Assembly (NCBI RefSeq): GCF_000969985.1
Contig: NZ_CP009526.1
Span: 4,340,001 to 4,404,000 of the forward strand
Length of the DNA: 64,000 bases
Direction of reading: 5' to 3'
Origin: Methanosarcina barkeri str. Wiesmoor
GTDB taxonomy: Archaea > Halobacteriota > Methanosarcinia > Methanosarcinales > Methanosarcinaceae
A program made the position numbers and the translations under genes. Shown here piece after piece: positions 26,998-40,477 of the stretch. The notes beneath the pieces were generated by a model that saw only the letters and a program-made list of their open reading frames with translations, ran no database searches and was not told the DNA's origin. How positions within the stretch are numbered: the first letter of the stretch is position 1; each line of letters starts with the position of its first letter.

Positions 26998-27042
26998 ATT
27001 TACTTTTTGTAAAGTTACTTTTTGTAAAGTTACTTTTTGCAA
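26998..27042. repeat. 15-bp tandem repeat at the trpS 3' end
   Basis: Three units of the form agttactttttgtaa (the last with gcaa) lie across the trpS stop codon and its downstream side. Looser copies extend to about 26960. Confidence 0.7.
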
Positions 27043-28451
27043 ATTATTTTATATTCATCGAGGTGTTCCCTTGCAAGTTCCCGCTTTTCCTGATGGTCTT
27101 TGAGGAACTCGTACATCTTCTCGGCCGCAAGCTGTTTGCATGAACCGCACATCCTGGTTCCTGAGACACATTCCTGCCTGATTTCCAGTAACTCCTCATC
27201 GTCCCCAAGCAGGTGGAAGAGCATCAGTTCGAACACTGAACATTCATCGGGTTTTCCGCCAAGTTTTTTCTGTTCTTCCAGGGTCACACAGCCGCCGGTC
27301 TTTGCCCTCTTTACTTTTTTTGCGCCTTCTTTCGGGTCGTCAGTAAGAGCAATATAACTGTCAGGGATGCTGCTCGACATCTTTCCTCCCTGCAGCCCGC
27401 TCATGAAGCGATGATAGGTAGATGCAGGAGGAATGAAAGCATAGCCTTCGAACTCAGCGGCTACTTCAGCTACAATCTCATCCAGTATTTTTCGGGTGAG
27501 TATCATTTCACTGGCGGATTTAGAGACATCTTTAAGCTCGGCCGTGAAGTATTTCTTTTTCTCAGGCTGGTTTATTTGCGAAACAAATCTTTCCAGGAAC
27601 GGATAGTCGGGAGTTTGAAGTACGTCCAGGTGCTCTTCATAGAGTTTCACTTTACCTGGAATGCGTTTTTTAAGCTCCTGTAAAGCTTGCTTTGGGGCAC
27701 CCTTGCCGCGCACGCTCAGGTATTTCCAGCCGTTTGCATTTTCTCTCTCTTCTACCCTGAACATGCTCATCTTGCCTGCAAGCCCTCTTGTAAGGCGGAG
27801 GTGAGGGTCCTGGTCAGGTCCTACAGGCACCACAACCGGTTTTGGCCCCCCAAATTCTTCAAGCTGGGGCTGGAGAATATCGGCAGCCTGAGTTGCTACA
27901 CTGATCATATGGGATAGGTTTGTCTCTCCTGAAAAACCATAGATTGCACTCAGTTCCGAGAAATTGACCTTGACCCCGAGTTCAAATGCCAGGTCTTTTA
28001 CGCTTTCACAGCCTGACTGAAAGTAAATAAGGCCATCGGGCTTAAAACCGAGAGCGATAAGACTTAGTATATATTCTTCCACTCCGATTTCCCTGCATTT
28101 CTGCCAGGAAAAACCGCGTACTGAGAAAGCCTCTCTATCCGCAATCCCAACAAAAGCTGACGCTCCCATTTGCTGGTGCCAGATAATCTGGTCCATAACC
28201 ATCTTGTGCCCGAGGTGAACCTTTCCTGAAGGCATAAAACCGTCCATAACCGAAAAAGGGGCACCTGTCCTCATGGCCTCTGCAATTTGTTCGTAATCAC
28301 GGTGCCCGAAGATAACTCTTCTCCGCATATACATATGTGGAGAGGGGATTTCAGGAAGCATATTATCAAATGGAGAAATCCCGAATTCTTCGAATAACTT
28401 GGAATAATCATTAATCTCGCTTGAACTCCATGGGTCAAGTTTATTAGTCAT
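27030..28451 (-). CDS. trpS: Tryptophanyl-tRNA synthetase
   Basis: A class I synthetase that charges tRNA-Trp. The start at 28451 ([20 protein letters not shown]) is chosen because GAGGG sits before it; a longer frame to 28679 has no such site. The signature HLGH in [11 protein letters not shown] and KMSSS in [10 protein letters not shown] correspond to HIGH and KMSKS. The protein is the archaeal/eukaryotic type, about 473 residues, with a Cys-containing segment [15 protein letters not shown] near the C-terminus that could bind metal. Confidence 0.95.
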
Positions 28452-28757
28452 AAAGTCCCTCGTTGGCTGCCGATTTTCTGGGAAAAGCCTCAGGCAGGCA
28501 GCTTTCTCTTGCTGAAAATAATTAAATACATGAATGCAGTTCCAGCTAAACTGCTCTTTAAAAATACGTGCTAATATGTAAATGTTTATCTTCGGGAAGA
28601 CGGTTCCGGACTCACACCGGTTTTCCAGAGGTACGAGGCTTTTAACTCTTCTTGTTTGCCATATCCCAACTAAAAGCAAGTTAAAAGGAATATAAACGTA
28701 CCAGAGAAAAACGCTAGAGAAAATTCTGTAAAAGAATATCCTATAACTTATTCTTTT

Positions 28758-29996
28758 TTACTCTTCATTAACTTTTTCAAATATTTTTTCAAATGGATAT
28801 GGCATTTTTGCTCCTGACGGAATCCTATCAACAAATTTCAGAAAATCTGGATCGTGCATAGGAGCCAGGTTTTTCTGCTTCTGGAAATAAGGGTAACTTC
28901 TGATTTTCTGCCAGGCTTCCTTTAAGGATTCTTCTTTTATGTTCCCAAAACTGAAAGGCGGATACGGACCGGCTTTTGCATCTCCGTCTGCCGTTATATG
29001 CATCCAGCGCCTGCCTTCCATTGCACCCAGCATCTGACCTTCAAAATAAGTATTCGCAAACATCCTCGGGCCGTCCGGGCTGGAATTTATCCTGTGGTAC
29101 ATCTCAAGGATGCTTTTCCTATCTTCGTCAGTGATTACAGGCTCATCTCTGGTTTTTGGCATTGCTTCCCAGACTGAAAATTCATGGACTCCAAGTTCCC
29201 ATGCAAGGTTATAGAGCGCAGGCAGTTCCTGTATATTTGAGGGAGACGCGTGTGTTGTCATTACAACCACGAGCCCGGCTTCAAGTGCCAGTTTTATGGC
29301 AGAAACCGCCCTTTCATATGCTCCCCTAGAATTTCGGGCAGCATCATGTTTTTCAGGGTCCGTTGAGTAAATTCCTACCATAAGTGAATGGAGCCCGGCG
29401 TCTTTCAGGCTAGATGCCGTTTCTGCTGAAAAGTCCGTACCCCAGGTGGAACAGTTTACTATAGCCCGTTTTTTGTCTACATACCTTATCAGCTCAAAGA
29501 CTTCTTCCCTCAGGAGAGGATCATTTTCAGTAAATGTGATAATGAAAGTGCCGGATTCAAGGGCTTCATCAATTATTCTTTTTACAGTACCGGTATCCAG
29601 CTCATCTGCAACCGTTCCTAGTGGATATCTCGAACTGCTCTGGCGGGTAAGTTCAATAGACACGGTTTCAGGAATGTATTTTCCGAGAGCTATCTGTATT
29701 TCAGCAAAAATAAGACGTTTAAAGGCAGGACTCGGGATTGGGGGGAGCCAGGCTGAGGCAATAACCCTGTTTTCCTCTACAAGGGCTAACTTTTCCTCTT
29801 TCAGGCGGGAATTCATCTTTTTCAGGACAGGGTTGAAAGCTACTTTCAGGGTCCCGTTTGCCGTAAGCTCCAGAACATCTCCGGCGTGCCTGAGGTTTAC
29901 TGACAGCCCGGGCATTGAGAAAATTTCTATATTTTTTTCCTCTGCTTGAACTTCTCTCAATGAAACTTCCGGTGTACCCTTTTTTTCAGAAGTCAT
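28758..29996 (-). CDS. Radical-SAM-like protein without cluster cysteines
   Basis: The 412-residue protein follows the radical SAM plan: a strand VSIELTRQSSSRYPLG (about 112-127) where IELTxxCNLxCxHC would normally stand, then FIITFTENDPLL, DAGLHSLMVGIYSTDPEKHD and an AGLVVVMTTHAS strand of a TIM barrel, and a C-terminal SFGNIKEESLKEAWQKIRSY that resembles a SPASM tail. Every cluster cysteine is gone: the only Cys in the protein is C182. It therefore cannot bind the catalytic [4Fe-4S] cluster in the usual way and may be a pseudoenzyme that binds peptide or another partner. No partner gene is adjacent. Confidence 0.7.
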   Translation of the reverse strand: MTSEKKGTPEVSLREVQAEEKNIEIFSMPGLSVNLRHAGDVLELTANGTLKVAFNPVLKKMNSRLKEEKLALVEENRVIASAWLPPIPSPAFKRLIFAEIQIALGKYIPETVSIELTRQSSSRYPLGTVADELDTGTVKRIIDEALESGTFIITFTENDPLLREEVFELIRYVDKKRAIVNCSTWGTDFSAETASSLKDAGLHSLMVGIYSTDPEKHDAARNSRGAYERAVSAIKLALEAGLVVVMTTHASPSNIQELPALYNLAWELGVHEFSVWEAMPKTRDEPVITDEDRKSILEMYHRINSSPDGPRMFANTYFEGQMLGAMEGRRWMHITADGDAKAGPYPPFSFGNIKEESLKEAWQKIRSYPYFQKQKNLAPMHDPDFLKFVDRIPSGAKMPYPFEKIFEKVNEE

Positions 29997-30254: not shown

Positions 30255-30863
30255 TCAGATCCTTTCTGAAAAGGCGAGGTTTCCGCTGATTTTCTTTATT
30301 TTTACTTTGACCACGTCACCTTTTGAGGCTCCGGGCACGAAAACCGTATACTTGTCTATCTTTGCAATTCCGTCACCTTTGGACCCGACTGCATCGATCC
30401 GGAGCTCGTAGGTTCCGCCTTCTTCGATAGCTTCCCTGACAACCACATTGGTTGCTTTTCTCTTCTTGACAGGCCTGTGAGCACCGCAAGCAGAACATCT
30501 CAGGACAAGCACCCTGTCCACCTTGACAAGCTGAGTGTCCGGGCGTCCGCATTCCGAACACATAACGTATTCGTCCACATAAGCCTGAATATTATCAGAG
30601 ATCTGGGCTCTCGTAAACCTTCCCTGGAAGACTGCACGTGTGCCTTCTATTTTCCCTGCAGTCCCAAGTTCCCTGGTGAGATATTTCATCAGGTGGTCAG
30701 GGTCCCGGTTAAGGATATCTGCAATATTTCCGAAGTTCTCAAGAATTGTAGTCTTTCCTTCGGAAAAGATTCTGGGCTCAGGGATTACGAATCGAGCATC
30801 CGTAGTCTCGGTGTCAGGCATTTTTGCCATTGCACGGTTCAAAAGCTCTTCGTAATCGTACAT
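30255..30863 (-). CDS. Translation initiation factor aIF2 beta with TRAM domain
   Basis: aIF2-beta is part of the heterotrimer that brings initiator tRNA to the ribosome. The 202-residue protein has the beta domain (about 25-100), the zinc ribbon C-SEC near residue 112 and C-SAC near 131 (MCSECG, RCSACG), and then an extra C-terminal TRAM domain ([20 protein letters not shown]), a nucleic-acid-binding barrel often added in methanogen forms. AAGGAG precedes the ATG. It follows rpl10e by 35 bases on the same strand, forming a likely translation operon. Confidence 0.93.
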
Positions 30864-30898: not shown

Positions 30899-31459
<561 letters not shown>

Positions 31460-37987: not shown

Positions 37988-40477
37988 TCATTTTTCTTCA
38001 TCTCCTTCACTCATCTCTGAAAGAAGGAAATTATAATTGTTTTTTATTGTTACTGTATTAGGATGCTTCGGTTCCAATTTCTTTTCTATTATTTCAAGTG
38101 CCCTTTGAGAAAGTGGGAGTGCTTTTTCGTATTCTCCCATCTGACGATAGAGTCCTGCGAGATTGTTTAGTGTTGTTGCAACAGATGGGTGTTGCGGATC
38201 AAGCACCTTTTCACGAGTGTCAAGTGCTCTTTGATAAAGTGGGAGTGCTTTGTTGTATTCTCCCATACTTTCATGGAGTCCTGCGAGGTTGTTTAGGATT
38301 GTAGCGACATCTGGATGTTCAGGTCCCAGTGTCTTTTCGACTATTTCTAATGCTCTTTGAAAAAGTGGGAGTGATTTTTCATAAGCTCCCGTATGATGAT
38401 AGAGTTCTGCGAGATTGTTTAGGGTTGTTGCAACATCAGGGTGGTCTGAACCCAGAACCTTTTCATAGATTTCAAGTGCCCTTTGATAAAGTGGGAGTGC
38501 TTTGTCGTAAGCGCCCATACGATAATAGAGTACTGCAAGATTGTCTAGGGTTGTTGCAACAGACGGGTGTTGGAAACCTAAAACATTTTCACGAATACCA
38601 AGTGCCCTTTGATAAAGTGGGAGTGCTTTGTCGTATTCTCCCATACTTTCATAGAGCACTGCGAAATTGTTTAGTGAATTTGCAACATCTAGGTGTTGGG
38701 AACCTAGAATGTTTTCACGAATACCAAGTGCCCTTTGATAAAGTGGGAGTGCTTTGTCGTAAGCGCCCATACGACGGTAGAGTTCTGCGAGATTGTTTAG
38801 TGAATTTGCAACATCTGGGTGTTCAGATTCCGGCACCTCTTTATAGATTTCAAGCGCCCTTTGATAAAGTGGAAGTGCTTTGTCGTAAGCGCCCATATGA
38901 TAATAAAGTCCTGCGAGGTTGTTTAGGGTTGTTGCAACATCCGGATGTTCGTTTCCTAGCTTTGTTTTCAGAATTTGCAGCATTTCTTCATACATAGGGG
39001 TAATTAATTGCCAGAATGCTGCTCTGTTGAACGAATCAGATACAGAAATAAACCATTCGCATAATTTTTCTGCTTCAAGTGATTCTTTTGCATGGTAGAA
39101 GGCTTCGGTTAGGGCTATTTCGTGTTCTGGGGTTATAGCCTTAATATCAAGTTCTTCTATTTTGTCACTGTAGTAAGCAAGCAAAAATTGATGAGTACTT
39201 TTTCTATCAGTAGAATCTTGATGTTCTTGGAGGCTTTTCCTCATCAACTGATGAATCGAATATTTCTCATTGGAATCGGTTTTGATAAAAGAAAACTTAA
39301 TCAGTTTTGAAAAGGCACCAGTTGGATATCCTGGATCAAACTTTTTCATCAATATTTCAAATAGATCTCGATCCCAGAAATTAGGTGCTGAGAGTACTTC
39401 AAGTGCTCGAATCTCATTGTGGTCTAGGTATTTCACAAATATGTTGAAAATTTCTGGCTGTGTTTTTCCGAAATATTTAGAAACCGGCTGTCTTTTCTTG
39501 TTTATCTTTTCAAAAGTATCAACGGACAGGTTAAGGTAATACGGAACTCCTTCGCTGGCTTTGATAATTAGATCTCGAATATCTTTGTTTTCAATACCGC
39601 AATCTTCCAAAAATTTTGTACAATAGCTTTCTGGAAGTTCATCTACTGAGTGCTGTTCCAGATACATATCCCAATCAGAATCACATTCAGGAAACCATAG
39701 CAATTTTTCTCGCCCACATATAACCCATGAAACACCAAGCATATTTGGAATAAGGTTATCCCTTATCCATTTATCTTTTTCATGGAAACTTCCTTTATCC
39801 CTCAGACCATCCCAGAGAGCTTCGTAAGTATCAATAAAGATGTAGAATTTCGAGTTTTCCCCAAAGTGTTCAAAAAAATCAGCGGCAAAAATTCCTGGTA
39901 GTAGTTCTTCTATCTTATTTGGCTCTAATGATTCAATTTTGGAAACATCGATATGATGTAAGTGGCACCATTTTCTAAAACTGTCTGAAGCGCTGTTCAA
40001 TAGTTCCCAAGCTAATGAAAGTTTACTAGAGTTCTCAAGGACACCTATTATTTTATCTAAAATATCTCCTTTCTCGATTAGAGGATAATTCTGTTTTTGG
40101 AGAGGAATTTCCGGGTGAAGCTTTTTCCAATAAATAGCATGAACAGCATTAAAAAGGTGAAACTTCGCACTATGCTCTTCTTGAATTTTGTTTCGTAAAG
40201 TTATGAGGAAGGTACCTATATCCCTGTAAGTTTTTACGTCAAGATCTATTGATGCCCAAAATATTTCAGGGTACTCTTCCTTCAGTATCTTTTGCAACTC
40301 TTCTTGCAATTTGCTTTTACCAATTCCAGCAATTCCGTAATAAAATAAGACATTGTATTCTTTGATTTCCGAATTCTGGATATTTTCTCTGAAAGCCTGA
40401 ATGCAGGCTTCCCTATCAACAAATACTCTCTCTTTCCCAAAGTACGTTGTAGGACCTATTGGCATGTATATCTCCAC
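37988..40477 (-). CDS. STAND-type NTPase with seven TPRs
   Basis: An 829-residue protein. The NTPase part has Walker A GIAGIGKS at about 48-55 and Walker B YIFIDTYEAL near 215, with a winged-helix-like region before residue 450. From about residue 505 come seven full 42-residue kinesin-light-chain-type TPRs (HPDVATTLNNLAGLYYHMGA and variants) and a partial eighth. This domain order is that of STAND ATPases, where the repeats sense a ligand and the NTPase oligomerises. No effector domain is visible at the N-terminus. Some such proteins defend against viruses, but the function is not established here. An alternative start is MPIGPTTYFG four codons downstream. Confidence 0.82.
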   Translation of the reverse strand: MEIYMPIGPTTYFGKERVFVDREACIQAFRENIQNSEIKEYNVLFYYGIAGIGKSKLQEELQKILKEEYPEIFWASIDLDVKTYRDIGTFLITLRNKIQEEHSAKFHLFNAVHAIYWKKLHPEIPLQKQNYPLIEKGDILDKIIGVLENSSKLSLAWELLNSASDSFRKWCHLHHIDVSKIESLEPNKIEELLPGIFAADFFEHFGENSKFYIFIDTYEALWDGLRDKGSFHEKDKWIRDNLIPNMLGVSWVICGREKLLWFPECDSDWDMYLEQHSVDELPESYCTKFLEDCGIENKDIRDLIIKASEGVPYYLNLSVDTFEKINKKRQPVSKYFGKTQPEIFNIFVKYLDHNEIRALEVLSAPNFWDRDLFEILMKKFDPGYPTGAFSKLIKFSFIKTDSNEKYSIHQLMRKSLQEHQDSTDRKSTHQFLLAYYSDKIEELDIKAITPEHEIALTEAFYHAKESLEAEKLCEWFISVSDSFNRAAFWQLITPMYEEMLQILKTKLGNEHPDVATTLNNLAGLYYHMGAYDKALPLYQRALEIYKEVPESEHPDVANSLNNLAELYRRMGAYDKALPLYQRALGIRENILGSQHLDVANSLNNFAVLYESMGEYDKALPLYQRALGIRENVLGFQHPSVATTLDNLAVLYYRMGAYDKALPLYQRALEIYEKVLGSDHPDVATTLNNLAELYHHTGAYEKSLPLFQRALEIVEKTLGPEHPDVATILNNLAGLHESMGEYNKALPLYQRALDTREKVLDPQHPSVATTLNNLAGLYRQMGEYEKALPLSQRALEIIEKKLEPKHPNTVTIKNNYNFLLSEMSEGDEEK

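Follow-up and report, generated by a model that had tools for sequence, protein, structure and literature searches.

Gene A of the window (the whole stretch of 64,000 nucleotides that was analysed) encodes a protein that belongs to the radical SAM superfamily by fold and by descent, and that has lost the cysteines expected to hold its iron-sulfur clusters. The reading of A as a conserved pseudoenzyme, and not as a product of decay, is well supported by the comparison of its orthologs, and A very probably performs no radical SAM chemistry. We propose, with a probability of about 0.5, that A binds a substrate without catalysing a reaction and serves as partner to an intact radical SAM paralog, and that the two help to make a respiratory lipid, probably methanophenazine. 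Gene context and distribution support the pathway, while the partnership is what we infer. That A works in a redox-lipid (methanophenazine) pathway appears slightly better than an even chance, and that it is a physical partner of its paralogs B or C is conceivable at somewhat below even odds.

Fold and loss of the cluster ligands

Two Pfam profiles match A above their cut-offs, Radical_SAM (PF04055; 55.7 bits, cut-off 29.5, residues 130-263) and SPASM (PF13186; 22.1 bits, cut-off 21.5, residues 328-372), and no other Pfam family does. The AlphaFold model of A, made with an alignment of 54 sequences, has a pLDDT of 86.6 and a pTM of 0.87, and its pLDDT falls below 50 only in the N-terminal 17 residues and at residues 120-128, the former cluster loop. 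Foldseek and VIA comparison of this predicted model with the PDB gave SkfB (Z 23.1, 280 aligned, 3.8 Å), PqqE (Z 22.2, 255 aligned, 3.2 Å), SuiB (Z 21.1, 286 aligned, 3.8 Å) and BlsE (Z 21.0, 257 aligned, 3.5 Å). The structures of SkfB, PqqE, BlsE and MoaA have the barrel and tail of A, but they are cluster-bearing enzymes with ~14-19% identity to it. Tetraether synthase was rejected as the match of A, its Z of 16.5 being under those of SkfB and PqqE.

Curated NCBI families of the AhbD, NirJ and PqqE kind match A weakly. The best-scoring among them are the heme b synthase AhbD (TIGR04545) and the NirJ group, and an identity as AhbD was rejected on a score of 103.3 bits, where the cut-off is 500. 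The name of the haloarchaeal family TIGR04347 marks it, too, as a radical SAM/SPASM relative considered to be pseudo-SAM; A scores 71.2 bits against its cut-off of 525, with only residues 128-287 aligned, and was not taken as a member.

These results agree with the initial annotation, which had described an intact, well-formed frame for a radical SAM protein with a SPASM-like tail, with C182 as its sole cysteine and TRQSSSRYPLG in place of the CxxxCxxC loop. The frame, the lone cysteine and the altered loop were all found as described (Table 1), and the leading structural matches in the PDB are radical SAM proteins, not the barrel of another kind that the annotation had named as evidence against its reading.

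Table 1. Gene A and its neighbours in the window. Names of the neighbouring genes are those that we take from their sequences.
Feature	Position	Strand	Remarks
Pseudo-radical-SAM/SPASM protein A	28758..29996	-	412 aa, ATG-to-stop frame
Former CxxxCxxC loop, residues 117-127 (TRQSSSRYPLG)	29616..29648	-	CxCxCxxC in intact orthologs
Residues 156-160 (TENDP), place of the GGEP SAM motif	29517..29531	-	TEGDP in intact A; GGE in B and C
SPASM-like tail with A325, T335, G343 and A378	28863..29024	-	Four former auxiliary-cluster positions; Cys in intact orthologs
Family-specific N-terminal region, about residues 19-105	29682..29942	-	WLPPIP motif common to A, B and C
Downstream TrpRS-like ORF	27030..28679	-	Syntenic partner in intact and lost genera; longest frame given, true start probably further in
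Upstream eIF2-beta-like ORF	30255..30863	-	Syntenic partner of A
Ribosomal protein L10e-like ORF	30899..31420	-	Syntenic partner of A

An alignment of 53 intact A orthologs has nine columns with near-universal cysteine, eight of which fit cluster ligands (residues 120, 122, 124, 127, 325, 335, 343 and 378 of the window copy). The intact rows have cysteine at all eight, save for one column with serine in five rows, and the 29 cysteine-less (lost) orthologs have none, save for column 124 in two of the 29. The ninth column (residue 54) is not a ligand, and its cysteine is kept in 18 of the 29 lost orthologs. Since this column is kept while the eight ligand columns are emptied, it is the ligands that were lost and not cysteines in general, a pattern that goes beyond chance. 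Neither CxxxCxxC nor an equivalent triad, as expected of an enzyme, is found in A, and no triad is present in any of the lost orthologs (29/29). The cysteines of the SPASM auxiliary cluster are absent from A as well.

In tallies of the five commonest forms per group, EGDP stands in place of GGEP in intact A as well as in A orthologs from outside the class (EGEP in one outside row), while lost A mostly has ENDP and the Methanimicrococcus-like rows have EGDP. The SLDS motif of strand 4 reads SIYST-like or GLRSP-like in A even with the cysteines intact. In B, C and the other outside paralogs, the GGEP and strand-4 motifs look canonical. Since the SAM motifs are altered even in cysteine-bearing A, A may have been on its way to a non-catalytic role before the clusters were lost. 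EGDP and altered strand-4 motifs are possible in active enzymes.

Distribution, origin and selection

All 99 relatives searched have some match to the family at E<=0.001. The named loci of A number 80, of which 25 are without the motif and 55 have it. The motif is absent from A in 30/30 Methanosarcina genomes and also in the four nearest genera (g2, g11, g9 and g10, the last being Methanimicrococcus), where two loci were read in g2, two in g11 and, for g9 and g10, three and then two more; g10 is so named because it has a contig in common with the named locus L177, which encodes an A with no cysteine at all. Cysteine-bearing orthologs from Methanolobus, Methanococcoides, Methanohalophilus, ANME-2 and other Methanosarcinia have ~46-58% identity to A, with the same N-terminal region and barrel and, within the family, the same syntenic place. 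Unlike A, these orthologs keep CxCxCxxC and the auxiliary-cluster cysteines, as do all 22 A loci of nine other Methanosarcinaceae genera at that same place. CxxxCxxC is also present in 11 A loci of families f2 and f3, which together with the 22 mostly read CxCxCxxC.

A first tree, built from named rows of at least 350 aa and chosen others and rooted on B, has one change of state, but the lost rows are split at its root, with the Methanimicrococcus-like rows apart. In a second tree, made from a chosen subset of rows with outside orthologs added as the root, all lost rows form one clade with support of 94. We take the split as a long-branch effect, since the lost rows come together once the outside orthologs are added, and on the better-rooted tree the loss of the cysteines is one event. 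A orthologs of other families and classes form a clade with A (support 99). A second, intact copy of A that compensates for the loss was rejected, since the next-best matches that lost genomes contain are B and C rather than another A.

In Methanosarcinaceae, A sits among translation genes (eIF2-beta/L10e and TrpRS/PheS, PheS too being a name that we take from the sequence), not beside lipid genes. Synteny comparison found the same neighbourhood in cysteine-intact and cysteine-lost genera, so lost and intact A are orthologs, and out-paralogy of the two is disfavoured. A KaiC-like ATPase gene lies directly upstream of cysteine-bearing A in 12 of the 22 intact family loci, one of the 22 ending at a contig end (e.g. 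L042:6216-6983(-)). It is beside A in 0/11 lost neighbourhoods, and no close ortholog was found in any lost genome among those searched. Being missing from the lost loci and from several intact genera, the ATPase is not needed, and we rejected it as an obligate partner of A.

The only broken A frames seen are those of G019, with a C-terminal frameshift, and L120, with a run of N; the rest of the genus has intact frames. In G019 (L030:1507-2714(+)) the frameshift lies at an A-run and affects the last 40 residues, and it is possibly an assembly error.

Selection was estimated as Nei-Gojobori dN/dS from pairs with dS of 0.1-1.0. The median is 0.123 for lost A in Methanosarcina and close genera (90/210 pairs) and 0.069 for B in the same genomes (83/210 pairs). 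Intact Methanolobus A has 0.041 for the four pairs (4/91) below a dS of 1.0, and 0.060 for the 19/91 pairs with dS up to 1.5. The protein divergence of A is 1.69 times that of B, and 88 residue positions are at least 93% identical and the same across 29 lost and 58 intact rows. Constraint on A is thus weaker than on its intact relatives, by about twofold in dN/dS, but still strong and purifying; the relaxation fits a reduced role.

The initial annotation had argued against simple decay and considered a pseudoenzyme possible, and had proposed an alignment of orthologs across Methanosarcina. The loss proves to be conserved in all 30 genomes of the genus and in the nearest genera, and this, with the purifying selection, supports the pseudoenzyme. 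Simple decay was rejected on a dN/dS far below 1 and on the retention of the frames across genomes. The annotation had also named, as a pair of findings that would speak against it, intact cysteines in sister species and relaxed selection on this copy: sister genera do have intact cysteines, but a decaying copy is not borne out at a dN/dS of ~0.12, about twice that of intact relatives.

Paralogs, gene neighbourhoods and menaquinone genes

The same genome holds two further close relatives of A, namely B (G000:C2:727355-728536; 37% identity to A) and C (35%). B has the architecture of A and a WLPPIP/WIPPIP motif. Unlike A, it has CxxxCxxC and GGE intact and adjoins a prenyl synthase; both motifs are kept in 20/20 fetched loci of B and in 30/30 of C. 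The radical SAM genes L092-L094 of this genome fall outside the A/B/C clade in the tree.

The gene that B directly adjoins encodes a polyprenyl synthase (PF00348, 167.6 bits), and a prenyl synthase is directly beside B in 8/8 Methanosarcinaceae B neighbourhoods examined. The genes near this synthase are presumably ATP synthase subunits. Excerpts of PMC3017947 describe a methanophenazine-specific geranylfarnesyl diphosphate synthase, MM_0789, and place its Methanohalophilus counterpart, Mmah_1452, in the vicinity of heme genes and the ATP synthase operon. The synthase beside B fits MM_0789/Mmah_1452, by a match of place and not of sequence. A gene of the geranylgeranyl-reductase (GGR) family flanks C in 30/30 fetched loci, and in the genome of the window a UbiA prenyltransferase gene lies beyond it. 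The initial annotation had suggested that A binds a peptide or nucleotide, for which we found no support; what the gene context suggests instead is a redox lipid of isoprenoid type.

At E<=1e-30 the family matches 197 of the 237 genomes of the class, usually three times per genome, and A co-occurs with B and C throughout the class. Of the 237, 39 carry MqnA/D (PF02621), genes of the futalosine route to menaquinone, and 38 of these 39 belong to the 40 genomes that lack the family; the lone match among the 197 family-bearing genomes, in G002, is weak (E 8e-6). Two genomes have neither the family nor MqnA/D, and both are partial (G078, 61% complete; G101, 57%). That the family occurs in relatives without menaquinone genes suggests a non-catalytic part for A in making a substitute such as methanophenazine. 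According to excerpts of PMC5244752, Ca. M. nitroreducens probably has menaquinone and ANME-2a likely methanophenazine, which would agree with this pattern if family f5 is the Ca. M. nitroreducens group, as we infer. The mutual exclusion may go back to no more than one or two events in evolution, as f4 and f5 are possibly sister clades. The prenyl synthase found beside B is present in 170 of the 237 genomes, which cover f1, f3, f6 and f7 as well as a single genome of f5; in f2, A, B and C are all present, but no close prenyl synthase is (E<=1e-40).

At E<=1e-40, 123 of 392 genomes of the phylum match the family. Outside the class, A orthologs and B-like genes lie next to each other in 11/11 fetched loci from four families, and this adjacency suggests a partnership of A. 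A GGR-family gene is near A in ten of these loci, and the eleventh, L194, is short. In L186, which was examined in detail, the run also includes UbiA, a third member of the family and one more radical SAM gene. Clusters of this kind (L186:8045-15662, with similar ones in L184, L185, L187-L189 and L192) hold three radical SAM genes of the A/B family, a further radical SAM gene and a GGR-family gene, with UbiA and NMT1/THI5-like genes where these were read (L186, L184); such a locus may serve to make a prenylated redox lipid. Among 236 class genomes, 234 have no close relative of the NMT1/THI5-like gene, and with two weak matches in the set it was rejected as a shared pathway gene; since the class has no close relative of it, the outside clusters may make another lipid. 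The A orthologs outside the class (e.g. L186:8045-9292(+)) have CTLNCSEC, GLRSP or GIKSP in strand 4, and EGDP for GGEP, and form an unusual radical SAM subgroup.

Proposed role and its alternatives

Pseudoenzymes are well known in other superfamilies. In our searches of the open-licence literature we found no paper on radical SAM pseudoenzymes, apart from the database family TIGR04347, which is named pseudo, and no description of this gene in that literature on radical SAM pseudoenzymes, TIGR04347 or methanophenazine biosynthesis. Excerpts of PMC8941075 and PMC10821996, on tetraether synthase and GGR, do not mention gene A. The methanophenazine pathway is called undeciphered or unidentified in excerpts of PMC8546582 and PMC6315138, and PMC5852551, also in excerpt, describes it as not known for most of the archaea concerned. 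A, B and C are three candidate genes for this pathway.

To explain these observations, we suggest that A descends vertically from a two-cluster radical SAM/SPASM protein, and that both [4Fe-4S] sites would have been lost once, before the lineages of Methanosarcina, its close genera and Methanimicrococcus parted. By the known mechanism, such a protein could not make the 5'-deoxyadenosyl radical. It would still fold as a barrel without clusters, with its pocket presumably kept, and could bind the same isoprenoid or aromatic intermediate. As a non-catalytic subunit or substrate carrier, A might then present this intermediate to a cluster-bearing paralog, B being the first candidate and C the next. 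Counted against this proposal are the place of A among translation genes, the absence of a close prenyl synthase from f2, the possibility that the exclusion of Mqn genes goes back to one or two events, the relaxed constraint on A and the chance that the outside clusters, with their NMT1/THI5-like gene, make another lipid. A bolder version, which we regard as tentative and rather doubtful, is that methanophenazine is made with the set A, B and C, in which A is an ancient degenerate subunit paired with canonical B and was made a cluster-free scaffold in Methanosarcina and Methanimicrococcus. If true, this would provide a natural before-and-after series from a radical SAM subunit to a pseudoenzyme. 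Sister genera keep the clusters at the locus where A is cluster-free, and Methanosarcina is a genus with genetic tools.

The place of A among translation genes (L10e, eIF2-beta, TrpRS, PheS) could also mean that it was repurposed outside the ancestral pathway, for example to act as a regulator or to sense a ligand, the barrel serving as the module that binds. The neighbourhood is kept in Methanosarcinaceae with or without the cysteines, and several intact species have the KaiC-like ATPase gene directly upstream. However, the loss is not accounted for by a neighbourhood that also surrounds cysteine-bearing orthologs, 11/11 lost neighbourhoods are without the KaiC-like gene, and A follows B and C through the class; we consider repurposing unlikely. 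It is quite unlikely that A became a different catalyst, one whose old pocket would now use SAM or some other cofactor for non-radical chemistry. Invariant or nearly invariant polar residues in lost and intact rows (E157, D159, H249, E272, E277, R293, E319, R330 and H333), and P185W at the end of strand 3, the one clear switch fixed between lost and intact rows, would be consistent with such a catalyst, but neither a new motif nor a site for a cofactor was found, and only Radical_SAM and SPASM pass their Pfam cut-offs. A slowly decaying relic kept by chance would account for the twofold higher dN/dS of A and for the one frameshifted genome, and is very improbable, given that A is present in 30/30 genomes of the genus and in four further genera, nearly all with full frames, at a dN/dS of ~0.12 and with its 88 conserved positions.

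Elsewhere in the window, an 829-aa ORF (37988-40477(-)) has what we take to be an NTPase-like front part and tandem tetratricopeptide-like repeats.
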